A stretch of 21,472 nucleotides of DNA from a virus. The notes under the pieces are model-generated. The model saw nothing but the letters and a program-made list of their open reading frames with translations, did not search any database and was not told the origin of the DNA. Position numbers and translations under genes: made by a program. Position 1 is the first letter of the stretch. Every line of letters begins with the position of its first letter. The DNA lies in the IMG/VR virus record IMGVR_UViG_3300022752_002813, positions 1 through 21,472 of that record. One strand, given 5' to 3'. Below, in pieces: positions 6,643 through 21,039 of the stretch.

Positions 6643-7194
6643 ATGAGCGGTTTAGCACCAGTTTTAACTGGATGCCATGTTTGCCGTAGCCCACTTGTAG
6701 ATCTAATTAATGCTCGTATTAAAAAGGGTATGGCCGATACGGCAATCAGTAAGTGGCTGGAGTCAGAAGGGCACTACGTCAGCAGGATTACCTTGGGGAA
6801 GCATAAACGAGAACATCTGACTTCCGACCATGAGTCGAAGCGGATTGCAGCCGCAGAAGCCCTTCAGAAGCAATCAAAGACAATAAAATTCAATGGTGAT
6901 CTTGCGTCTCTTGTGAGGGATCAGGTGGTTTCGTTGGTAGAGAGTGGGACATTAATGCCCTCCCTCGCTGAAGGCCTCCGAGCGCAGGAGATCATCGATA
7001 GGCGACAGGAGAAGTCATCAGATCGTGAACTGGCTATTGCGCTCGCTGGAATCCTTGGTGGCTCTATTGTGGTCGATGGTACCGCGACGGAGATCTCGGG
7101 CCCAACAGATACGCTTGTACAAGTTCTCGAAGCTACCGTTCAGGCTCAAATGGAGCCCGCTGATGACGGAGCAGGACTGGAACAGCTGGGATAG
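6643..7194 (+). CDS. Putative small terminase or CxxC/HTH/HxxxH DNA-binding protein
   Basis: A 183-residue protein. I take the ATG at 6643, after GGAG (6626-6629), rather than the GTG at 6613 that lies inside the fibre-tip gene. Residues 11-14 are C-H-V-C, followed by a helix-turn-helix-like stretch (about 20-50) and H54-K-R-E-H58-L. That C-x2-C ... H-x3-H arrangement around an HTH looks like a small zinc-supported DNA-binding module found in phages. The middle and C-terminal parts are helical and could mediate oligomerisation. The gene is two genes upstream of the large terminase, which is where the small subunit would be expected, so TerS is my best guess. A transcription regulator remains possible. 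Its 3' end overlaps the next gene by 32 bp. Confidence 0.5.
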   Translation: MSGLAPVLTGCHVCRSPLVDLINARIKKGMADTAISKWLESEGHYVSRITLGKHKREHLTSDHESKRIAAAEALQKQSKTIKFNGDLASLVRDQVVSLVESGTLMPSLAEGLRAQEIIDRRQEKSSDRELAIALAGILGGSIVVDGTATEISGPTDTLVQVLEATVQAQMEPADDGAGLEQLG

Positions 7195-7576
7195 GTCTAT
7201 CAAGATCGCTACACAGGCAGCTAAAGATCATTACATCCCAGTCAAATACATTAAGATTCATAAACATTTATTCACAAGCAATTGCGACCTAGGATCAACG
7301 GATACTGGTCGAAAGACCATCGAACTATGTGACGACCAGGCAGAGACTGCATTGCACGAGCTAGCGCATATCTGGTCGCAGGCAAACCATACGGAGATCT
7401 GGGTGCGTAAACTCTATCAACTACACGAAGAGTATCTCGAAGACGATGAAATTGAACTCTATCGCCGAGAAACTGAGAATCGCTATAAGGCAGCCAAAAA
7501 GATGTCCGAAGATGGCGAGCCTGTAAAAAAGAAGCGCAAGAAGCGCCGAAGGGGGAGCAAGAGGATTGTCGGTTGA
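7163..7576 (+). CDS. HExxH metallopeptidase-like protein with Lys/Arg-rich tail
   Basis: A 137-residue protein. I take the ATG at 7163, after GGAG (7152-7155); the frame is open far upstream but only inside the preceding gene. Residues 65-69 are H-E-L-A-H, the zinc-binding and catalytic motif of many metallopeptidases. H76, with the hydrophobic W80 after it, is a candidate third zinc ligand (HExxH-x6-H), as in SprT-like or similar small peptidases. A helix (about 82-115) follows, and the end (121-134) is a run of Lys and Arg. Function inferred: a small zinc peptidase, or a fold that lost activity. Placement between the putative TerS and TerL suggests a role in head assembly or packaging. The basic tail could bind DNA or the acidic scaffold. 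The gene overlaps TerL by 11 bp. Confidence 0.6.
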   Translation: MTEQDWNSWDRSIKIATQAAKDHYIPVKYIKIHKHLFTSNCDLGSTDTGRKTIELCDDQAETALHELAHIWSQANHTEIWVRKLYQLHEEYLEDDEIELYRRETENRYKAAKKMSEDGEPVKKKRKKRRRGSKRIVG

Positions 7577-9071
7577 TCTCTCTAAAGGAACCATTGCACG
7601 CGATCTGGCTCTCGGCCGCACTGACGTCGAGTTCTTTGCTGAACGTTGGCTGGGCATCAAGGGAAACCCAGGCCAAGTGGCATGGTGGACAGCCTGTGCA
7701 GAACGCGATTCCTCTGGGTGGCGACCGAAATACCTCACAACAGTCGTATCCGCTGGTAATCGTGCGGGGAAAACGTTGGCGATGGCGGTCATATGCCTAC
7801 ATCATTCCTTCTATAAACTCGGCATCAAACCTCCAGAGGATGGCCAAAACGATGCACGTCGATGGCTCACCCAGCCATACGAATGGTATCACATCGGCAT
7901 TCAGCAAGAGACTGCGGAGCTTGTTTACCGCGAGCTAACAATGATGCTGGAGGGGATTCATCCAGCGCAGAAGGGCAGAGGATGCCCACTCATCAAAGAA
8001 CTAGGACGAATTGCTACATATGACAAGAAATACAGAGGGGAATATCCATGGATTCAACTAAGCCCAGTAGTCGGCGGGGCAAACATTCACTTCCGAACGA
8101 CGCAGGACAAGGCGAAGGCGCTCCTCGGAAAAGATATGAATGGGATCTCCTTCGACGAGGCGGCCTTCGAGCCCTATCTGGATACAATCTACCAAGAGGT
8201 ACTCAACCTACGGCGGCTCTCTACTGGAGGGCCATTGCACTTCATCGGAACTCCGACGGAGGGGCATAACTTCTACGCTGATCTTTGGGAACGAGGGAAC
8301 CCAGAGAATCCTATCAAGGATGAGCAGTTCATTTCCTTCAGGCTATCGACCCGCGACAATGTCGGGTACGGACTTTCTGGAGATACATTTGAGTCAATCA
8401 TCCGACAACAAGAAGCCTACCTTATTCCGCAAAACATCGATGGTGAATTCATCGAAGCACGGAAAGCTTTTTTCTCTTCCGAATCCGTCGTCGGATGCTT
8501 CGATCCTGGGCTACATGACGATAACCCGCCTGAACGTGGACATCGATACGTCCAAGGAGTGGACCCTGGCATTTCTGCCGACGCGACCTGGAGTCTTACG
8601 CTCGACGCTACTAACCGCAATCGTATCGTTGGTGTCCGAGCTCGACGGCGAGGTGGAAAACAAACGATACCAGCAGTAGTCAATATGGTTCGAGAGAGCC
8701 ATCTGCTGTACAACCAGAGCGGAGCATTCTGCTCGACAGTGATTGATAGCACTGGACTTGGTGGACGATTGTTCCAGCAAGAGTTTAGCATCATCAAGCC
8801 AGTTCGCGGATTTGACTTTGGCGGAACCAAGGCAAAGAAGCTCGAGCTTCTATCCGACTTGAAGTCGGTAATGGATAAGAAACAGTTGGTTATGCCAAGA
8901 GACGGCGTCTGGGGAGATCTGCGACGTCAGCTACTTGGCTACCGACTCGATGATAAGAAGTTGGAACAGGACGCAGTAATGGCACTGGCCATGGCAGTCC
9001 GACAAATCGTTAGGAACCCAGAGAATCCTGTGAAAGATCCTGTGTTCAGTTATTATGGAGAGAATGATTAA
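7566..9071 (+). CDS. terL: Terminase large subunit (TerL)
   Basis: A 501-residue packaging motor and nuclease. The N-terminal ATPase has Walker A AGNRAGKT (63-70), Walker B ISFDE (194-198, with catalytic E198) and a coupling-type motif GTPTEG (228-233). The C-terminal RNase H-like nuclease shows acidic residues D333 (GVDPG), D394 (VIDSTG) and D469 (EQDAV). It pumps DNA into the prohead through the portal and cuts the concatemer. The only reasonable start is a TTG at 7566, preceded by GGGGGAG (7551-7557), because no ATG or GTG is available before Walker A. The start overlaps the metallopeptidase end, and the stop overlaps the portal start (TAATG at 9069-9073). Length is normal for the family, and all catalytic elements are present. 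Confidence 0.95.
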   Translation: MSVDLSKGTIARDLALGRTDVEFFAERWLGIKGNPGQVAWWTACAERDSSGWRPKYLTTVVSAGNRAGKTLAMAVICLHHSFYKLGIKPPEDGQNDARRWLTQPYEWYHIGIQQETAELVYRELTMMLEGIHPAQKGRGCPLIKELGRIATYDKKYRGEYPWIQLSPVVGGANIHFRTTQDKAKALLGKDMNGISFDEAAFEPYLDTIYQEVLNLRRLSTGGPLHFIGTPTEGHNFYADLWERGNPENPIKDEQFISFRLSTRDNVGYGLSGDTFESIIRQQEAYLIPQNIDGEFIEARKAFFSSESVVGCFDPGLHDDNPPERGHRYVQGVDPGISADATWSLTLDATNRNRIVGVRARRRGGKQTIPAVVNMVRESHLLYNQSGAFCSTVIDSTGLGGRLFQQEFSIIKPVRGFDFGGTKAKKLELLSDLKSVMDKKQLVMPRDGVWGDLRRQLLGYRLDDKKLEQDAVMALAMAVRQIVRNPENPVKDPVFSYYGEND

Positions 9072-11368: not shown

Positions 11369-13749
11369 TGGCACGTCGAGGTCGATTCGCCCGCGCTACT
11401 GGCGGGTCAGATATTTCCAGTCTTATTAGCCAGCTGATTCAACAGCAGGCAACACGTCGCTATAATGCGATGTATGCGGCCTTTAAGAATGGCACAACGT
11501 TTGAAGGGTCTACCCCAACTGCTTCGCAGGTTATGGCGTATCTCGGCAGCGTTGCTGATATTCTTGGATACGACTCGACAACGCTTGCGTCAGAGCAGAA
11601 CAATATCCTGATCACTGGGGCAACAAATGCTGCCTCTGCTGCTGCATCTGCGTATAGCGCAGATCGTGGAAACGCAGTAAAGTATCAGGATTATATCAAT
11701 GCAAAACGTGCACTACTTGCGTTCTACACTCCTGGGAGTGATAACTATAACTCAACTCAGGCTGACATTGACAGCGCAGCATCTACATTCGTCAATGATA
11801 GCGCAAAGCTTCTTGAGTCTGGCGCCATCACTGTAGATCAATACAAGAACGCATCCCTTAATGCACTTTCTGGCATTAGCGGAGATCAGCTTGATGTAGC
11901 AACGGATAACTATCTTAAGAACCTTTATAACTACGAGCAGAAGTTTGAGCAGGCCAAACTCAACAAGACGAAGAACTATGCTGCCTACTCTAAGTGGCTA
12001 GCTGGATGGCTTAAGATCTACGAGAATGCTGGTCTTCAATCATCTTCGACCTACGCAACACTTAAGGGCGACCTTGCTCGGACTAATGAAGCTGGGTCAA
12101 ACGCTGCCGCACAAACTGCCGTAACTGACGGTGTTGCATCAATGCAGGCTGGTATCGGTCAGATTGATGCATTCTATGGACTAGTTGCAGAAACTCTTGG
12201 TATTGATCCTAAGACCGTATCTGCCGCAGATGTTGCTCGATTCTATGCTATTGCTCAAGCAACACCATCGCTTACTAAGTATAGCACCTTTATTTCACGA
12301 ACTGATCTTGCGAATCTTACAAACGGATTGCGCAGCACTTCTCTTGGCATTACGAGTTCAGCAGCATCTGGAAAGGTAACACTTGGCCAGGGAGTAATCG
12401 ATCTTCAAAATGCTGTTATTAATCTTGCTGAAAGTTATGGTCTTGATACCCTTGGTGATCGCGCAAACGTTATTACTGGAGAGTATCTCAACGATAACTT
12501 TGCTGCTAATAATGGCGTAACTGATGAGCATGAGGCAGACAAGGCGTACCTTCGAAAGCTTCAAGCAATCATTGCTGCGTATAAGGCTAAGGAAAATCTT
12601 ACAGCTACTGAAAACGATCTACTTCTTGGTCTTGAGGCAGATGCTGCCGCAATTAGCGGCGCCCTAAGCGGACAAATGCCACCAACTGGGGCAGTTGTTC
12701 TTACTGTTTCTGGCGAAGAGATTGACCTCAATGGCATTCATTCTAACGCAGAAGTAACAAAGCAAATTAATGACGGTAAAGCTGTCCAGGCATATGATAA
12801 CAGCACTGGACAATTCATCACAAGCTCAGAGCCAGGAGCACTAGTTCTTACAACTGGCAATGGCACAGTTCAGCAAGGCAATGGCGGATACTACGCTCTT
12901 ACCTATCGAACTGTCAATGGAAAAAATCAGCGCGTTGCCGTCAAGGGTGATGCTGTTCGAGACGCAAACGGTCAAGTAGTATTTGTTTACGTCAGAAGCG
13001 GATCTGGTGGAGACACCATTCTCTATGGCATTGATGGAAAGACTGTGTTCTTTGGTGATCAAGCCGACACGGTTATCACTGCATCTGGTGGTCTTGTTGG
13101 GTCATCAGAGGGTGGTTTTGTATTCAGGGGTGGCTTAAATCTTGGCGGCGCAATCCCAGCAAGCAATCCAATCATTGACTCTCGAACTGGAGAGATCGCA
13201 GCATTTGAATCTCCGACAATGGCAAAGACCTATGCTGGATATGACACAGTAACTGAGAACAATGGAATCCGAGCAGGCCTTGATGCGCAGGCAGCTGCTG
13301 AAGCTGCGAAGCCACCGCTTGTCACCATCGGTCCAGCAAACTATATGACTGATCTTATCGGTGCAGTTTTCCTCAAGCCGTTTGAAAATCTTTGGACTGG
13401 CTTGGATAATACTGTTCGACTTACTGGAGAAGTCCTCTTTGGTGAAGGCGGTCTTATTAAGAACGGACCGAAGGATGTGACTCCAATTGGACCAGCTCCA
13501 ATAGTTTTTATTCCTCCGAAGCCACCAGCGCCTGGAACAGTAAACCTTGGAACAACCAATTTGTTTGATATTCCACCAATGCCAACTGGAACGATTGGAA
13601 TTGGAACAGGTTATAACCTTACTACTGGACTTGGAACAAACAACTTGCCACCAGTCCCAACCAATACCATGATTAACACTGCATCACTAACCACTGCGCC
13701 TTCACCAGCGCCAGTGTTTGGTCCAGATGGAAAGAGGCGTAACGTTTAA
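11368..13749 (+). CDS. Unrecognised 793-aa probable virion protein
   Basis: No family recognised. The ATG overlaps the portal stop, and AAGGAG (11352-11357) precedes it. Residues 1 to about 440 are rich in Ala, Leu, Asn, Ser and Tyr and look mostly helical. Around 444-600 the sequence changes to a beta-rich, Gly-rich section (TVSGEEIDLNG through GGLVGSSEGGFVFRGGLNLGGA). From about 650 on it is Pro/Gly/Thr-rich, with PPKPPAPG at about 714-721 and an FGPDGKRRNV end, probably disordered. No signal peptide or catalytic motif is evident. It is made directly after portal and coupled to the giant protein after it, so I infer a structural or internal (ejected) head protein. A protein carried in the head and attached to portal is one possibility. 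Confidence 0.75.
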   Translation: MARRGRFARATGGSDISSLISQLIQQQATRRYNAMYAAFKNGTTFEGSTPTASQVMAYLGSVADILGYDSTTLASEQNNILITGATNAASAAASAYSADRGNAVKYQDYINAKRALLAFYTPGSDNYNSTQADIDSAASTFVNDSAKLLESGAITVDQYKNASLNALSGISGDQLDVATDNYLKNLYNYEQKFEQAKLNKTKNYAAYSKWLAGWLKIYENAGLQSSSTYATLKGDLARTNEAGSNAAAQTAVTDGVASMQAGIGQIDAFYGLVAETLGIDPKTVSAADVARFYAIAQATPSLTKYSTFISRTDLANLTNGLRSTSLGITSSAASGKVTLGQGVIDLQNAVINLAESYGLDTLGDRANVITGEYLNDNFAANNGVTDEHEADKAYLRKLQAIIAAYKAKENLTATENDLLLGLEADAAAISGALSGQMPPTGAVVLTVSGEEIDLNGIHSNAEVTKQINDGKAVQAYDNSTGQFITSSEPGALVLTTGNGTVQQGNGGYYALTYRTVNGKNQRVAVKGDAVRDANGQVVFVYVRSGSGGDTILYGIDGKTVFFGDQADTVITASGGLVGSSEGGFVFRGGLNLGGAIPASNPIIDSRTGEIAAFESPTMAKTYAGYDTVTENNGIRAGLDAQAAAEAAKPPLVTIGPANYMTDLIGAVFLKPFENLWTGLDNTVRLTGEVLFGEGGLIKNGPKDVTPIGPAPIVFIPPKPPAPGTVNLGTTNLFDIPPMPTGTIGIGTGYNLTTGLGTNNLPPVPTNTMINTASLTTAPSPAPVFGPDGKRRNV

Positions 13750-16700
13750 TGGTTAGATCAATTGGCGGATCTGGCACACCACAATATCGTCCTGGCTCCA
13801 TTGGCGGGGCTACTGGCGGACTGAATCAGAAGCAGCCTGATGTAACAAACATCGGGCGCCTTCAGTTGTCCGCAGGGCAGCCTCCGAACGAGCCAGACTT
13901 CGGGAAAATGCTAAGTGGCGTTCCAGTACTAGGACAGATCGGACAAGCCGTAGGGGCCGTCGGAGGTGCCATTGGCGGGGCTCTAGGAGGACTCCTAGAC
14001 GTGGCTTCTGCCCCAGTACGCTTTGTTGAGAAGGAAATTGCTGGTCGAACCCGTGTCGAGCTTGCAAAGGCTGGCGCCATTGGTACTGGCGAAGGGATCA
14101 AGGACATCCCTGTTATTGGGACTCTTACTGGTGCCCTTCGTGTAAATAAGACTGTTGATCAAATGGCAAAGCAGGGATCAAGCACTGACGAAATTCTTGC
14201 CTATATGGAGAAGAATCAGATCGGTGGATTCTCTGAAGACGGGTTGCAAAATTTTGTTGGCGGTCTTGTACTTGATCCAATAAACCTTATTGGCGGAGAA
14301 GTAGTTAAGCCATTCATCTATGCAAAGAAGGCTGGAAAGATTGCCAAACTTGCAGAAGCTGGCGTTAAGATCGGTGCAGAAGATGCAGCATTCCTGGCAA
14401 AGCATGATTTTGCTGGTGGTCTATACAATGCGACATTTGGCAAGGCGTCTGGAAAGCTTGCTCAAATCGGCAGCGCAGTACGCGGGCCTCTTATTGCTGC
14501 TATTCAAAAAGAACATGGCATTGATCGTCTTCGTGCAATTGAGGGACGACTTGGCGCAGACGGATCAGAGACATTTGTCCGCAACTACCAGAACGGAACT
14601 GCAAACATTGCTCGCGCAACAACGCGAGATCTTATTAGCTCACTAACCCAGGGGAATGCTGACGCTGCTGTAACATTTGCAGTCACGCGAACCATTGAAT
14701 CGATTGACGAGATTGGACGAGTTGATGATGCGATTATTGACAACGTTGCTGCAATTCTTGGTATCACTAAAAACGATGCTCGCAGCTTTACGGCAAAGGT
14801 TGCAGAACTACGAGTAAGCGGCGACCTTGACAAGCTTGCTGCCTTTCAAGATTCCTACATTAAGAAGATCGTTGATACTGAGATTGCTGGAAAGGCTCGA
14901 TACCTTCGATCAGACAAGCAGATTGAGGCGTTTGGTGGCGCATCGCGTAAAGAGATTGAGTCTGGTGCACGCGGCCGCATTAACCGAGAGATGCTTGAGC
15001 TTGATCGATTTGCTACTAGCGAAGATCTTTGGAAGCATACTTACACCAAATGGATGGCCCAGGGTGCTGGCGTTACTGAGGCAAAGGCCGCAGATCTTGC
15101 AGACGCAGCATGGAAGGCCGCCAAGGGGGATCGCTCCGCACTGATGCGTGAGCTCGACATTACCCGCCAGGCTGCCTTTGGTTCACTTGCGTCAAAAACC
15201 GCAAAGCTTCGCAAGCGACTCAAAGGAGATCTTGGCCGACTAACCGTTATCAGCAAGCGCAGTCTTACGACCAGCGTTGTCAAGGGGATTGAGCGAGACT
15301 TTGAAATCCTCACTGGTCTTGGCCCAGAAAGCCTTACGGGCGGGAAAAATATCTATGCAGTTACGCTTACACTAAATCAACCAAAGATACGAAAGGAATT
15401 CGTTGAGGGGGTACGTTCTAGATTTGGCGATGAGTTTGCAGATCAAGTTCAAAAAGAGTTCGATGACGCTGCCGCTATACTTGGACGACTTGATCTAGAC
15501 AAACCAAAAACTACCACGTTTAGGGGGGAAGTAATTGAATATGCTGAAGGCCCAACTCGGAAGGAACTTGTTGCCGCTGGTCGAGAACGCGCAGCTGCAA
15601 TCCGTGAGATCTACCTTACTGCCTATGCCAAGGTTATCGTTCGCAACTTCGATGAGGCTGACGCACTCTTTGGACGTGGCAACCTAAAGAACCTTCGGTG
15701 GGAAGAGGTTCGTCGATTCGTCAAGCAGGCTCGACGCGACAATATTCTCGTCAGCGACTACCTGCCAAAGAACATCCCAGCAAACGTGCAGAAGCTTATT
15801 GATGAAGCACAGCAGGCTGGGTACACGCTTGGCCTTGCCCCTGAGAGTGGCGTTGGCAAGCAACTCATTCCTATAACAATGGCAGATGGTCGAACAAAAC
15901 TAGCCCCAGTCTCGACCATCTTCTCCGACGCCGTCGATGGATTCGGCGATGAGATCCTTGGCGTGACCACTGGATCTGCTGGGTCAGGAAAGCTTGCAAA
16001 GCTCAACCGACTACAGTCCATTGCCGACACGTGGCTTAACCCGTTCAGCAACCGTGCTGTACAGCAGAACGCCATCGAGCGTATGTTCACGCTTTCTGGC
16101 GGGCGACTGACTCGACGCGAAGCAATGCGCATCTACATTGCGCTGATCGACAAGGCGCTTGAGGCCGAGACGAGCATCCGTGGCCTAGGGCGAGACCAGA
16201 TCGACGCCGTCTTCAAGGACGTCCTTGGGGCTAAGAATCTCCAGGATGCTGGATTTAAGTTCGCCGACTCCGACCCGCAGCGTCTAGTGATGATTGCCCT
16301 TGAAGGCGATCTAAAGAATGTTGGCGTGACTCAGAAGATTTCTGGTAAAGTTAAGACATTCGTACCTGACGTTACCCTTATTACTGACCGATATTATGGA
16401 AATGTTAAGTTCCGTTATAATCCGTACTTTAACCTTGCCCAAGAGCGCATTGAGCCGTTCTTCTTCAACTATCTCCGTGGCATTCGACCAACGGTTAAGG
16501 AGATCTTGACGGGCAAGGCTGGGGCAACTCAAAAGACGATTATCGAGAATGCCGAGTTTACTCAGGCAATGCTTGGGTCGGCGAACTCAGTGACCCGCGA
16601 AGCGGTTGATCAGTCGCTTCTCCTTTCACGAGCAGATGCCGCAATGGCACGAACACTGGACAAGGAAGCTCCGCAGCTAGGAAATGCCGTCAGCCGAGCC

Positions 16701-18107
16701 CTTGGTGTTGAGGGCCGAGTTAAAACCGCTCAGATTAAGCGGGAACAGGCAGCTGTTCTAGCCGACAGACTTTCGGTTGAGGCATTGGAGCGGGTCTTCA
16801 CCTCAGACAACCCACAGCTCATGAAGGCACTCTACGAAGTATACAATACATCAGACCCAAAGATTGCCATTGAGCGATACCTTGCCGACAAGATGGACGG
16901 ATTGATCCCAACGCGGGCAGCAGAGCGAGCCAAGGGACTCTACCCACTTGGCTTTGGACTTCCGTATGCTATTGATCCGAAGCTTGCCAAGATTAGCAAG
17001 CAGGCACTGATCCGCAGAAAGTATCTCCGAGCCAACGACATTCCATCCCTTGAGGCTGCGGTTGCCCTTGCGAAGGATGCGGGCCTTAAGGGCGATGACC
17101 TTGCCAGACTGGAGAAGCACGTCGAAGACATCAGGGGCATGATTTCCCGATCACGCACTGGAAAGATCAGCACTCCAGCAAAGTTTATCCGTGACGTCAA
17201 TAAGATCGAAGGCTTTGCAGTGCGGCAGCAGGAAACCATGCGGTTCCTGCGTCCGCTGCTTGAGCACCCACGAATCAAGCAGGTTATTGGCGAGTTCACC
17301 GATGGCGTTACCGAAGAGAAGGCGCTGACTGAGCGCCTGATTGAGGCGCTGTCGGTTGATGAGTTCGTCCCTGGTATCCAGGAGATTGGCGAGCGCGTTG
17401 CCCGTGGCGAGAAGCTTTTGCCGTCCGACGTGGACAAGATTGCCCGTGGCCTTCAGAACACGATGGCAGAGCGATCAGCCCAGGAGCTCGTCTACTCTGC
17501 CGTGACCCTTGCCTACCAGAACGCGCAGAAGCAGGCGTTCAAGATCGGCTACTACTCCCAAGAGAAAAGCCTCCTTGAGCGAAGCTTGAATCACCCATAT
17601 CTTGGCCTGTATCCGACATCCTATATGTGGGGCAAGATCATCCCAGAGTTCAGCCGTGCACTCTTCAAGTATCAGCCATTCACTGGCAAGCCGCGACCTC
17701 TTGGTGGCGCTGCGTGGGCTGGGTGGATTTCTGATCAGGTATCTATGGCGCTGGAAAACAGCGAGTTTGGCAAGTTCCTCCAGGATCGACCAGAAGCATA
17801 TTTCCTTATTACAAACCTTATCCCTGCAACGCCAGACCAGATCGGCGTCAGTATGCCAGCGTGGTTCCGCAAGTCCGTCTTGCAGCCACTTGCTCGTGGC
17901 AAGTTCGATCCACGAACTGACATCCTTGGAATTGGTACAGAGTTCATCGGCGGCGCATCCAACATCGGTGTGCTGAACGTTGGACGACAAATTATCGGAA
18001 CTGGCCAGGCTGTAAGCCGTGGGCTCTTCGGTAGTAATCAACGCGGAAACGAGACGTCAGGATTGGTTCCTGACATCTATAATGAGCTGAGCCGACCAGG
18101 ACAGTAG
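13749..18107 (+). CDS. Giant 1452-aa probable internal virion / ejection protein
   Basis: The largest gene in the window. It starts at the ATG overlapping the 793-aa gene stop (TAATG), with AGAGG at 13733-13737. The N-terminus is Gly-rich. Residues about 55-83 form a glycine-zipper-like hydrophobic stretch (VLGQIGQAVGAVGGAIGGAL) that could insert into membranes. The rest is overwhelmingly helical with many Arg, Lys, Ala and Glu. Near 1281 lies N-H-P-Y-L-G-L-Y-P-T-S-Y-M-W-G-K, a stretch I associate with large phage minor head proteins. I see no polymerase, lysozyme or protease signature on inspection. Large size, helical nature, membrane-active start and position between portal and scaffold support a packaged protein released with the DNA. 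A large minor capsid protein is the alternative. Confidence 0.75.
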   Translation: MVRSIGGSGTPQYRPGSIGGATGGLNQKQPDVTNIGRLQLSAGQPPNEPDFGKMLSGVPVLGQIGQAVGAVGGAIGGALGGLLDVASAPVRFVEKEIAGRTRVELAKAGAIGTGEGIKDIPVIGTLTGALRVNKTVDQMAKQGSSTDEILAYMEKNQIGGFSEDGLQNFVGGLVLDPINLIGGEVVKPFIYAKKAGKIAKLAEAGVKIGAEDAAFLAKHDFAGGLYNATFGKASGKLAQIGSAVRGPLIAAIQKEHGIDRLRAIEGRLGADGSETFVRNYQNGTANIARATTRDLISSLTQGNADAAVTFAVTRTIESIDEIGRVDDAIIDNVAAILGITKNDARSFTAKVAELRVSGDLDKLAAFQDSYIKKIVDTEIAGKARYLRSDKQIEAFGGASRKEIESGARGRINREMLELDRFATSEDLWKHTYTKWMAQGAGVTEAKAADLADAAWKAAKGDRSALMRELDITRQAAFGSLASKTAKLRKRLKGDLGRLTVISKRSLTTSVVKGIERDFEILTGLGPESLTGGKNIYAVTLTLNQPKIRKEFVEGVRSRFGDEFADQVQKEFDDAAAILGRLDLDKPKTTTFRGEVIEYAEGPTRKELVAAGRERAAAIREIYLTAYAKVIVRNFDEADALFGRGNLKNLRWEEVRRFVKQARRDNILVSDYLPKNIPANVQKLIDEAQQAGYTLGLAPESGVGKQLIPITMADGRTKLAPVSTIFSDAVDGFGDEILGVTTGSAGSGKLAKLNRLQSIADTWLNPFSNRAVQQNAIERMFTLSGGRLTRREAMRIYIALIDKALEAETSIRGLGRDQIDAVFKDVLGAKNLQDAGFKFADSDPQRLVMIALEGDLKNVGVTQKISGKVKTFVPDVTLITDRYYGNVKFRYNPYFNLAQERIEPFFFNYLRGIRPTVKEILTGKAGATQKTIIENAEFTQAMLGSANSVTREAVDQSLLLSRADAAMARTLDKEAPQLGNAVSRALGVEGRVKTAQIKREQAAVLADRLSVEALERVFTSDNPQLMKALYEVYNTSDPKIAIERYLADKMDGLIPTRAAERAKGLYPLGFGLPYAIDPKLAKISKQALIRRKYLRANDIPSLEAAVALAKDAGLKGDDLARLEKHVEDIRGMISRSRTGKISTPAKFIRDVNKIEGFAVRQQETMRFLRPLLEHPRIKQVIGEFTDGVTEEKALTERLIEALSVDEFVPGIQEIGERVARGEKLLPSDVDKIARGLQNTMAERSAQELVYSAVTLAYQNAQKQAFKIGYYSQEKSLLERSLNHPYLGLYPTSYMWGKIIPEFSRALFKYQPFTGKPRPLGGAAWAGWISDQVSMALENSEFGKFLQDRPEAYFLITNLIPATPDQIGVSMPAWFRKSVLQPLARGKFDPRTDILGIGTEFIGGASNIGVLNVGRQIIGTGQAVSRGLFGSNQRGNETSGLVPDIYNELSRPGQ

Positions 18108-18154: not shown

Positions 18155-18712
18155 ATGGCTGAAGAAGTCGTCAATCCAGTCGCGGAGGAGTCGCTTCCCG
18201 CAGTCGAGACGCCAGTCGAGGCCGCAGATGCCACTCAGGGCGACGAGGATCTGGCCACTTGGAAGAAGCGTCTAGCTGGTAAGGATCAGGCTCTGACTTC
18301 TACCAAGAAGGAACTTGAGGCCAAGGCATCCGAACTCGAAGCTCTACGCAAGTGGAAGGCAGAGGTCGAGCAGGCCAATATGACCGAGCTGGAGAAGGCT
18401 CAAGCGCGGGTAGCCGCGATGGAGTCTGAACTGAATGCGGCACGTGAAGCGGCACGCCGTGAGGCGATTGCTCGTAAGCACCCGCTCTTTGCTCAGTTTG
18501 CCACGGATACGCAGGGACTGGACGTTGAGGCTCAGGCCGCAGCGTTTGAGAAGTTTGTTGCGAACGTCGCACGCGAGCCACAGAAGGCGGATGCGTTCGT
18601 GGATGTCAATGCCCCTCGTAAGTCTGCCCCGCAGGCAGCTGCGAAGCCTGATGCAAAGTCTCTTTCTGAGGCTATTAAGGCGATAGGCAACCCGTTTTAC
18701 GACGGTAAATAA
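18155..18712 (+). CDS. Capsid scaffolding protein
   Basis: A 185-residue protein preceded by AGGAGA in the 18141-18147 area. It has an acidic, Pro/Val-rich N-terminus (1-35), a long charged heptad-rich helix that predicts a coiled coil (about 36-105), and a more basic Ala-rich C-terminus ending in SEAIKAIGNPFYDGK. This is the standard build of phage scaffolds: an acidic, flexible, helical rod with a basic end that touches capsid protein. It stands directly before the major capsid gene, the usual place. It would fill the prohead, direct shell assembly and then leave or be cut. Codon use is closer to the capsid gene than to the genes upstream, consistent with high expression. Confidence 0.85.
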   Translation: MAEEVVNPVAEESLPAVETPVEAADATQGDEDLATWKKRLAGKDQALTSTKKELEAKASELEALRKWKAEVEQANMTELEKAQARVAAMESELNAAREAARREAIARKHPLFAQFATDTQGLDVEAQAAAFEKFVANVAREPQKADAFVDVNAPRKSAPQAAAKPDAKSLSEAIKAIGNPFYDGK

Positions 18713-18732: not shown

Positions 18733-19713
18733 ATGCCAATGACTGGTACAACCACCAGCACGTCGGGCTTTAGCGATCTCGTAACGCAGCTCGTCGTCGC
18801 TCAGGCGGAAGAGGAACTGCGCGCTCGTGCCGTACACGCGATGCCAGGGATGTATGTCCCAGGGCGTTTCGTGAAGGGCACGAACACGATTCGTTTTGCT
18901 CGCTACGCTGACCTCGGTCTTGCTTCCGTAACCGCCGTCCTCTCAGAGGGCGTTGCGCCAACGGATCAGGGCCTCTCGATCTCGTCCGAGTTCTACACTG
19001 CCGCCCAGTACGGTGGCACGGTAGCCATCTCGGATCTCGCTAACCTCGATAGCCCACACGATCTGATCTCGGTTGCTGCCGAGCGCATCGCGTATCAGGC
19101 AACTCGACTCATGGACGTTCTCGTCCGTGACCAGATCCACGCTGGTGTGGACACTGGTGCAATCTTCACGGCAACCGCTTCGGCGACCGTTGCCGCGAAC
19201 GGCGCAACTGCCCTCGCTCCGCTTAATGGCTGGCAGGTCAAGCGCATGGTAGCTTCGCTCAAGGCTGCGAACGTCCCAACGTTCCCAGACGGCTTCTACC
19301 GATGCATCATTCACCCAAATCAGGAGTTCGACCTCCTGACCGATACGACCGCCAATGGTTGGATCGAGCTCAACAAGTACGTGTCGGATCTTCCAGCACT
19401 TACGAATGAGATCGGCCGCTTCGCTGGCGTTCGCTTCATCACGTCGTCGGACGCGCACCGCGCTGCCACGACTGCTCCAACCACGTATGCTGCCTCGGGC
19501 GCGAACTACCAGGCGTTGTTCCTTGCCCCAGACGCTTACACGATTGGTGACAGCCAGACCCTCCAGAGCTACTTCGTGGCTCCTGGTGGCGACCACACCG
19601 ACCCACTCGCACAGAAGGCCCTCTTGGGCTTCAAGATGCGCTGGGGCTCGATGCTGATCGACGCAGCTGGCGCACGCTATCGCGTGCTTCGCACGACTTC
19701 TACGATCAGCTGA
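18733..19713 (+). CDS. Major capsid protein, N4-gp56 family
   Basis: A 326-residue protein with AAGGAG (18718-18723) before the ATG at 18733. The pattern YVPGRFVKGTNTIRFARYADL (about 41-61), LSEGVAPTDQGLSIS (70-84) and AQYGGTVAISDLANLDSPHD (91-110) is characteristic of the N4 gp56-type HK97-fold capsid family: a beta N-terminal segment, an acidic/Pro turn, then a beta-strand and spine-helix region. Many copies would form the icosahedral shell. Codons are unusually regular (Arg almost all CGC/CGT, Leu CTC/CTT) compared with the CGA- and CTT-rich neighbours upstream, as expected for the most highly made protein. No large insertion and no separate decoration domain is apparent. A 14-bp hairpin follows the stop. 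Confidence 0.92.
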   Translation: MPMTGTTTSTSGFSDLVTQLVVAQAEEELRARAVHAMPGMYVPGRFVKGTNTIRFARYADLGLASVTAVLSEGVAPTDQGLSISSEFYTAAQYGGTVAISDLANLDSPHDLISVAAERIAYQATRLMDVLVRDQIHAGVDTGAIFTATASATVAANGATALAPLNGWQVKRMVASLKAANVPTFPDGFYRCIIHPNQEFDLLTDTTANGWIELNKYVSDLPALTNEIGRFAGVRFITSSDAHRAATTAPTTYAASGANYQALFLAPDAYTIGDSQTLQSYFVAPGGDHTDPLAQKALLGFKMRWGSMLIDAAGARYRVLRTTSTIS

Positions 19714-19791: not shown

Positions 19792-21039
19792 ATGAGTAAA
19801 GAAGTTAAGGTTCTAATCTGGGGGACAGCAGCTCAGGGGCCATGCGCATACTACCGTGGTCACCTATTCGACAAAGAGCTGGAGAAGCGTGGGGTCATCC
19901 TCAAGCATATCGATAGAGTAGAGTTCCAGGTCCAACAGGGATGGGAAGACAAGCCCATGGACGAAGCGATGGCCGCAGGAAAGGTCACGCTGGACTCATC
20001 AGATATCGACTGGGCGGACGTGGTCATGTTCCGCCGATATTATAATACTGCATTTAAATGCATGACCTGCGGAGCTGCTTACAAAGACATCAAGAAGGTT
20101 GAAGAGCACCCGCATCCAATGGAGCGTCGAGATGGCGTAACGTCGCTTGTATGGCCAGCCTTTGAGTTTGGAGACCATAACAAGGCAATTGTCTACGACA
20201 CCGACGACAATCACTTCAACATCGAACGATGGAACGGCTACTATCCAGACGTTCAGGAAGAGCTTCCGCTTGTTACTGGAATGGCAAAACGAGCAGATCT
20301 TCTAACAGTTAGTACGCCAGTTCTTGGCAGGCAGTACGGACATCTTAACGACAACGTTCGAGTGATTCGAAACGCGATTGATCCAGATACGTACGTGCTT
20401 GATCCAGCCAAGGAGGTTCCAGACCTTGGCAAGCCAAAGCTCCTCTATTACGGTAGCGGAGCTCGGATGCGAGACTACGCTGGCTGGAGGAACCCAACCA
20501 CACAGAAGTGGGATGGTGGCTACTGCTCAAAGGCAGCAGAGGATCTCAAGGACAAGATGGTGCGCATCTTTGTCGGAGTCAATCCTGGCGAAGAGCCAAT
20601 CGTTGCTCCACACTTCGATGTGATGCACCCATACATTGAAAATATTGCCGAGTTCAACAAGGTCATTACTTCGATCAAGCCAGACATTGGCGTCTCTCCA
20701 CTTGTCGGCGGACCATTTGACCAGGCAAAGTCCGAGCTTCACTGGCTGGAATATTCGATGGCTGGAGCCGCGACAATTAATCAGAAGTTCTACGGGGATG
20801 GACCATACGACGTGATCAAGGATGGCGTCGATGGCTTTATGGCCAAGGGCCGAGCCGAATGGTACACAAAGATGCATCGTCTTGTAGCAGAACCAAACCT
20901 GCGCAAAGATATGGCTGCCGCAGCTAAGGAGCGCGTGCTCAAAGAGTACGACTACCGAGTCCGCGCAGACGAATGGGCCGACGCCTTTAGGTGGGCGGCA
21001 GAGAACGCTGGTATCAGCAAACATAGGAGGGTTGCATAG
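19792..21039 (+). CDS. Glycosyltransferase (GT-B, GT4-like) with possible zinc-binding insert
   Basis: A 415-residue protein. I take the ATG at 19792 after GGGGAG rather than a GTG at 19756, which lies in the hairpin. The N-terminus (KVLIWGTAAQGPCAYYRGHLF) and the later motifs DTDD (136-139), NAIDPDTY (194-201), LLYYGSG, and SELHWLEYSMAGAATI (314-329, with E320 in the usual acidic donor-binding position) fit a GT-B glycosyltransferase related to GT4. C90-x2-C93 with H106-x-H108 may form a zinc-binding insert. Known phage enzymes of this sort glycosylate DNA, virion proteins or host surface polymers; which one applies here is unknown. It lies between capsid and adaptor genes and is coupled to the latter by TAGTG. 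The protein appears soluble. Confidence 0.85.
   Translation: MSKEVKVLIWGTAAQGPCAYYRGHLFDKELEKRGVILKHIDRVEFQVQQGWEDKPMDEAMAAGKVTLDSSDIDWADVVMFRRYYNTAFKCMTCGAAYKDIKKVEEHPHPMERRDGVTSLVWPAFEFGDHNKAIVYDTDDNHFNIERWNGYYPDVQEELPLVTGMAKRADLLTVSTPVLGRQYGHLNDNVRVIRNAIDPDTYVLDPAKEVPDLGKPKLLYYGSGARMRDYAGWRNPTTQKWDGGYCSKAAEDLKDKMVRIFVGVNPGEEPIVAPHFDVMHPYIENIAEFNKVITSIKPDIGVSPLVGGPFDQAKSELHWLEYSMAGAATINQKFYGDGPYDVIKDGVDGFMAKGRAEWYTKMHRLVAEPNLRKDMAAAAKERVLKEYDYRVRADEWADAFRWAAENAGISKHRRVA

Follow-up and report, generated by a model that had tools for sequence, protein, structure and literature searches.

A small zincin encoded across the end of the putative TerS gene of a freshwater phage, and its possible action on DNA-bound proteins

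What does a small HExxH protein do when its gene lies among the packaging genes of a phage? Such proteins are common in phages and, to our knowledge, almost none has a known substrate. The case considered here comes from a freshwater phage, IMG/VR virus record IMGVR_UViG_3300022752_002813, of which we analysed the whole stretch of 21,472 bases (the window). A preliminary description had noted an HExxH gene wedged between the putative TerS and TerL genes and had suggested that its product, a compact zinc peptidase, could take the place of the serine-type prohead protease in capsid maturation. The features of the locus are as follows.

6643..7194, + strand: putative TerS, 183 aa, recognised by its synteny upstream of TerL; the 3' end overlaps the zincin gene
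7115..7576, + strand: probable full zincin gene from TTG 7115, 153 aa; adds an N-terminal beta strand and extends the TerS overlap to 80 bp
7163..7576, + strand: HExxH ORF as first called, 137 aa; GGAG shortly upstream of the ATG; dN/dS computed against L002
7259..7267, + strand: H33-x-H35, a second histidine pair invariant in 18 homologues, at the end of strand 29-32
7328..7330, + strand: C56, an invariant cysteine that follows the strand ahead of the active-site helix
7355..7369, + strand: HELAH, invariant in 18 homologues, inside helix 60-72; H65 and H69 probable zinc ligands, E66 probable catalytic base
7388..7390, + strand: H76, invariant, probable third zinc ligand, in the loop joining helices 60-72 and 78-91
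7526..7564, + strand: Lys/Arg tail, residues 122-134, predicted to be disordered (low pLDDT); the same DNA covers the probable TerL ribosome-binding region
7566..9071, + strand: TerL, 501 aa, TTG start; phrog_2 E 1.6e-19, Terminase_6N above cut-off

Reading frame, selection and gene start

The ORF at 7163-7576 encodes the 137-aa protein with H65-E-L-A-H69, H76 and a Lys/Arg tail that had been described, and it shares 32 bp with TerS and 11 bp with TerL, in agreement with the proposed coupling to both packaging genes. The motif occurs once among the approximately 6,600 annotated residues of the window and, as 0.11 occurrences are expected from composition, is by itself weak and suggestive evidence. 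In 18 homologues with identities down to 25%, however, H33, H35, G44, L55, C56, L64-H69, W71, H76, W80, L87 and Y108 were all invariant, and we found no homologue without HExxH, including in searches that did not depend on the pattern HELAH[IL]W alone, a pattern that biases part of that search. Comparison of the window with its relative L002 gave dN 0.034 and dS 0.535 for the zincin gene (dN/dS approximately 0.06), close to the values for TerS and TerL; the gene is under strong purifying selection. The invariance of HELAH together with H76 in 18 homologues and the low dN/dS thus place the motif beyond chance. The H33-x-H35 pair and C56 show the same invariance as the active site itself, and a second metal site or a Wss1-like cysteine switch is conceivable.

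The Lys/Arg tail, on the other hand, was confined to the window, L002 and L003, the three genomes in which the zincin gene abuts TerL; in most other clade members the C-terminus consists of CxCG and a few basic residues. As the tail is found in three genomes only and its codons lie over the probable TerL ribosome-binding region, it cannot define the function of the family.

The start of the gene was probably mis-set, the real start lying upstream at TTG 7115. In the clade relatives, the zincin frame continues without a stop ahead of the ATG, and this part codes for a conserved motif resembling PF(K/R)(V/L)K. For the 11 codons preceding the ATG, the mean pairwise identity was 0.57 in the zincin frame versus 0.32 in the TerS frame, and 0.39 versus 0.17 when the window was compared with the others. 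The segment is also present in homologues that do not overlap TerS, L145 having MDKYSNLNFKVNFPKGM where the window has MYKFSKLPFRLKWSPLM, and AlphaFold2 models the added residues as a strand (10-13). Since the upstream codons are in frame and encode a strand conserved also outside the TerS context, the start is probably upstream of the ATG. TTG 7115 is shared with L002 and L003, but in some relatives the corresponding position has only a CTG or lacks any standard start codon, so that this start is likely rather than certain.

Predicted fold and family assignment

We modelled the protein with AlphaFold2 from an 18-sequence alignment, in both the 137-aa and 153-aa forms, and compared the models with known structures using Foldseek. 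The core had pLDDT values mostly of 92-98 (pTM 0.80), with HELAH on helix 60-72 and H76 in the following loop. For the 153-aa model, the two best PDB matches were both Wss1 (5xbv, E 1e-3; 5xbn, E 5e-3), and the first of these had probability 1.00 with TM-scores of 0.48/0.57, a likeness that is only moderate. The 137-aa model matched selecase first (E 0.012) and also abylysin (E 0.03), with Wss1 at rank 17, so that the longer start lifted the Wss1 match from rank 17 to rank 1. The TM-scores of the fold matches ranged from 0.47 to 0.57. In a library of viral models, the best matches were uncharacterised phage proteins (E 6e-9), followed, among the named matches, mostly by SprT-like proteins. Given the invariant HExxH and H76, the helix at 60-72 and the matches to Wss1, selecase and abylysin, the models indicate that the protein very probably has a zinc-peptidase fold, and the idea of a compact zinc peptidase gains support.

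Family assignment is less direct. Pfam WLM was the most frequent sequence match (E 0.007-0.009, under the cut-off), and the PF08325 scores of 16.9 and 16.6 bits fall below the cut-off of 26. The protein shares with the WLM type both the fold (5xbv, then 5xbn) and the HExxH followed by a third histidine in a downstream loop, H76 lying in loop 73-77 of the model; as the PF08325 score is under the cut-off, we call it WLM-like and do not file it as a member. SprT-like (PF10263, cut-off 25.6 bits) was reached only at E 0.2-0.3 and in three to four members, and IrrE/ImmA type (M78, PF06114, cut-off 22 bits) at 13.1 bits in one member, with IrrE/PprI structures matching weakly (probability <0.3). NCBIfam gave nothing for the window protein, and PADLOC a chance-level HORMA match only. 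Sequence profiles run against solved structures returned essentially only aminopeptidase helices, matched through a similarity of short motifs, and peptide deformylase was set aside as no such structure was among the fold matches listed.

Genomic setting in two sister clades

A TerL search of IMG/VR gave 118 related places, and a tblastn comparison with named phages found no match for the zincin, three of its distant homologues or TerL. Among records with TerL approximately 75-97% identical, the zincin gene was at the TerS end in all 17 distinct records covering the place. Its frame was +1 relative to TerS in 11 of 11 relatives measured, with overlaps of 32-143 bp. TerS itself is 55-97% identical throughout the phage group and always upstream of TerL; as profile searches found no confident family match, its name is an assignment by position. 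Adjacency to TerL was seen only in the window, L002 and L003. The other 14 records keep the TerS overlap or adjacency and have roughly 1-4 kb of genes between the zincin and TerL, namely a C39-like gene and, in part, holin-like, proline-rich secreted and DUF6321 genes (e.g., L006:1846-6004). This block probably serves lysis in part, and it has been lost or moved in the window (at 7576) and its two closest relatives. The description of a gene wedged between TerS and TerL thus holds for these three genomes, and for the remaining 14 only its TerS side does; as TerL adjacency is limited to three genomes, we consider the zincin tied to TerS, not to TerL. Zincin distances correlated with those of both TerS (r 0.85) and TerL (r 0.93), which indicates co-inheritance.

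Further downstream, the window contains the following head genes.

18155..18712, + strand: putative scaffold, 185 aa; phrog_3760 head scaffolding E 0.015; precedes the capsid gene
18733..19713, + strand: major capsid protein, N4-gp56 family; TIGR04387 112 bits against a cut-off of 60, phrog_1357 E 6e-36

Directly after the capsid gene follows a glycosyltransferase-like gene (19798-21039; named from reading its sequence) that is 48-89% conserved throughout the group. Upstream, the giant virion-like protein (13749-18107) has 1452 aa in the window; its counterpart in the related record G013 (L149:1-8105) reaches 2701 aa or more, and the identity between the two is low.

A sister clade, with TerL 71-74% identical, has orthologous TerS, portal, scaffold and capsid genes. 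The zincin family of the window (family I) was absent from every sister-clade record searched. These phages instead have another small HExxH protein (family II; alignment A4, HELIHxHQ), which was found in 24 group records upstream of the tail-fibre gene and TerS (e.g., L042:1760-2152) and was missing from all 7 records of the group that have family I. Family II matches Pfam SprT-like at E 4e-5, and homology between the two families beyond the motif was undetectable (hhalign probability 2.7%). As the exclusivity follows a single clade split, it counts once. Record G010, which seemed to have neither zincin, was dismissed as uninformative, its contig ending just upstream of TerL with the TerS region missing. 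In the 85-kb record G016, genes of family II and family I are adjacent (L146: 5551-5955 and 5956-6408).

Elsewhere, family I is patchily distributed across unrelated phages and genomic contexts. In L139, the homologue is preceded by exonuclease, DnaC-like, DnaB-like and thioredoxin-like genes (the last read from sequence), and in L138 its neighbourhood includes DnaB-like (likewise read from sequence) and Cas4-type exonuclease genes. A candidate in L147 (5620-6339, Acidimicrobiaceae MAG) was rejected as an orthologue as it looks secreted; this protein, the sole match in a cellular genome, has a signal-like N-terminus, the motif LHELAHLW and weak similarity to the phage zincin.

Possible substrates and comparison with known systems

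We propose, tentatively and with somewhat less than even confidence in the full reading, that the zincin is expressed late and attacks DNA-bound proteins as a protease of the Wss1/SprT type; the models support the fold well, and the substrate is one that we infer. The protein would be a small minigluzincin-class zinc metallopeptidase whose fold comes nearest to that of the Wss1 (WLM) protease; judging from conservation and fold, H65, H69 and H76 would be its zinc ligands and E66 would serve to activate the water. It would be made late, alongside the packaging genes, through the frame that overlaps TerS, the overlap being observed and the coupling presumed. Its substrates would be host or phage proteins bound or crosslinked to DNA, in the manner of Wss1 and Spartan, and the phage DNA would be cleared of them during replication and before packaging. 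The basic or Cys-containing C-terminal tail may tether the enzyme to DNA, and in the sister clade the SprT-like family II, whose gene is likewise found close to TerS in the late region, probably has the same role. Both Wss1 and Spartan require DNA and break down the proteins bound to it whatever their identity, Spartan requiring its C-terminal DNA-binding region (PMC5128726), and SprT-like proteins are widespread in mycobacteriophages (PMC12363180). The replication-gene neighbourhoods of the L139 and L138 homologues, in part read from their sequences, lend support to a link with DNA. Counting against DNA-bound substrates are the Pfam WLM and SprT scores below cut-off, the TM-scores of 0.47-0.57, the approximately 15% identity to Wss1, the unconserved tail, the existence of minigluzincins such as selecase for which we know of no DNA role, and the reduction of the family I/II complementarity to one event. 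In a more specific form of the proposal, which we regard as rather unlikely, phages of this group would need a DNA-dependent protease, made with TerS, that frees concatemers of tightly bound or crosslinked proteins ahead of the action of the terminase motor; the sister clades would have recruited two unrelated families of zincins for this single task.

The metallopeptidase could alternatively cut host proteins, such as a regulator, defence or nucleoid protein, in takeover or counter-defence, and we consider this unlikely though far from implausible. There is a precedent in the SprT-like and ArdC-like zincins of jumbo phages, which have been argued from their patchy distribution and copy number to be host-directed (PMC7824862), and both the scattered occurrence of family I in unrelated phages and contexts and the weak IrrE/M78 matches are in line with it. 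Within its own clade, however, the zincin is stably maintained and inherited along with the packaging genes, in contrast to an accessory gene with fast turnover; its position among the late genes is late for a takeover function, and the only PADLOC hit was at chance level.

A role in maturation, in which the zincin would cut a head protein such as the scaffold or the giant protein, is disfavoured, and we think it quite improbable. The observation behind it stands: no S78, ClpP-type or S49 protease was found in the window, nor in the long records of either clade. The long group records covering the relevant region moreover encode a zincin, from either family I or family II, the gene is co-inherited with TerS and TerL, and, in group 1 jumbo phages, an uncharacterised zincin has been proposed to act in maturation (PMC7824862). 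The suggestion that it replaces the serine-type enzyme nevertheless fared poorly against the capsid, sister-clade and S78 evidence. The major capsid protein is of the N4-gp56 type, on which no N-terminal propeptide was seen, and the scaffold is encoded by a separate gene. The sister clade keeps the scaffold (about 46-51%) and the capsid (65-70%) without family I, so that the protein is not present wherever its cognate capsid and scaffold occur, and as an HExxH zincin it falls outside the known catalytic classes of prohead protease (S78, S49 and ClpP-type serine). In four unrelated phages, family I coexists with an S78 protease scoring above the cut-off, approximately 10-34 kb from the zincin in those measured, and other homologues sit in replication modules.

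A zincin fold without peptidase activity, for example a metal-bound accessory factor of TerS, would agree with the constant TerS overlap in the clade and with the invariant H33, H35 and C56 outside the HExxH, but it is very improbable as the catalytic glutamate and the ligands are invariant in 18 of 18 homologues, also in those away from TerS. A chance ORF or chance motif, which could be argued from the overlap with both neighbours and from an HExxH expectation that is not vanishing, is refuted by the dN/dS, the motif intact in homologues to 25% identity and the confident fold.

What emerges is a zincin stably tied to a terminase operon, with Wss1 as its nearest fold and replaced by another zincin in a sister clade, and with this system one could test directly whether packaging requires phages to clean their DNA first. 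A gene start that was probably misread is corrected as well, the upstream codons improving the fold match.

Among known systems, the serine prohead proteases (S78, S49, ClpP type) resemble the zincin in being phage-encoded proteases with the role first proposed for it, and differ in catalytic class, in their absence from the window group and, for S78, in coexisting with the zincin elsewhere. Family II is likewise a small HExxH protein encoded near TerS, and the head and packaging genes of its phages are orthologous, but its gene is placed upstream of the tail-fibre gene and TerS, it matches Pfam SprT-like at E 4e-5, and its likeness to family I ends at the motif. The minigluzincins selecase (4qhf, 4qhi) and abylysin (4jiu) share the compact zincin fold of about 105-110 residues; they are archaeal, and their matches are at E 0.01-0.03 with TM-scores of 0.4-0.5. 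We know of no DNA role for these enzymes. SprT-like proteins and Spartan (PF10263) are zincins of similar size and account for most named viral-model matches, whereas the Pfam SprT-like profile is reached by few family I members. Wss1 (WLM, PF08325; 5xbn/5xbv) carries its HExxH on a helix with the third histidine in the loop after it, its ligands being H115, H119 and H125, the last in loop 7 (PMC5557861). The phage zincin has the same arrangement with a spacing between the second and third histidines one residue longer, and a short tail in place of the C-terminal region with Cdc48- and SUMO-binding motifs.
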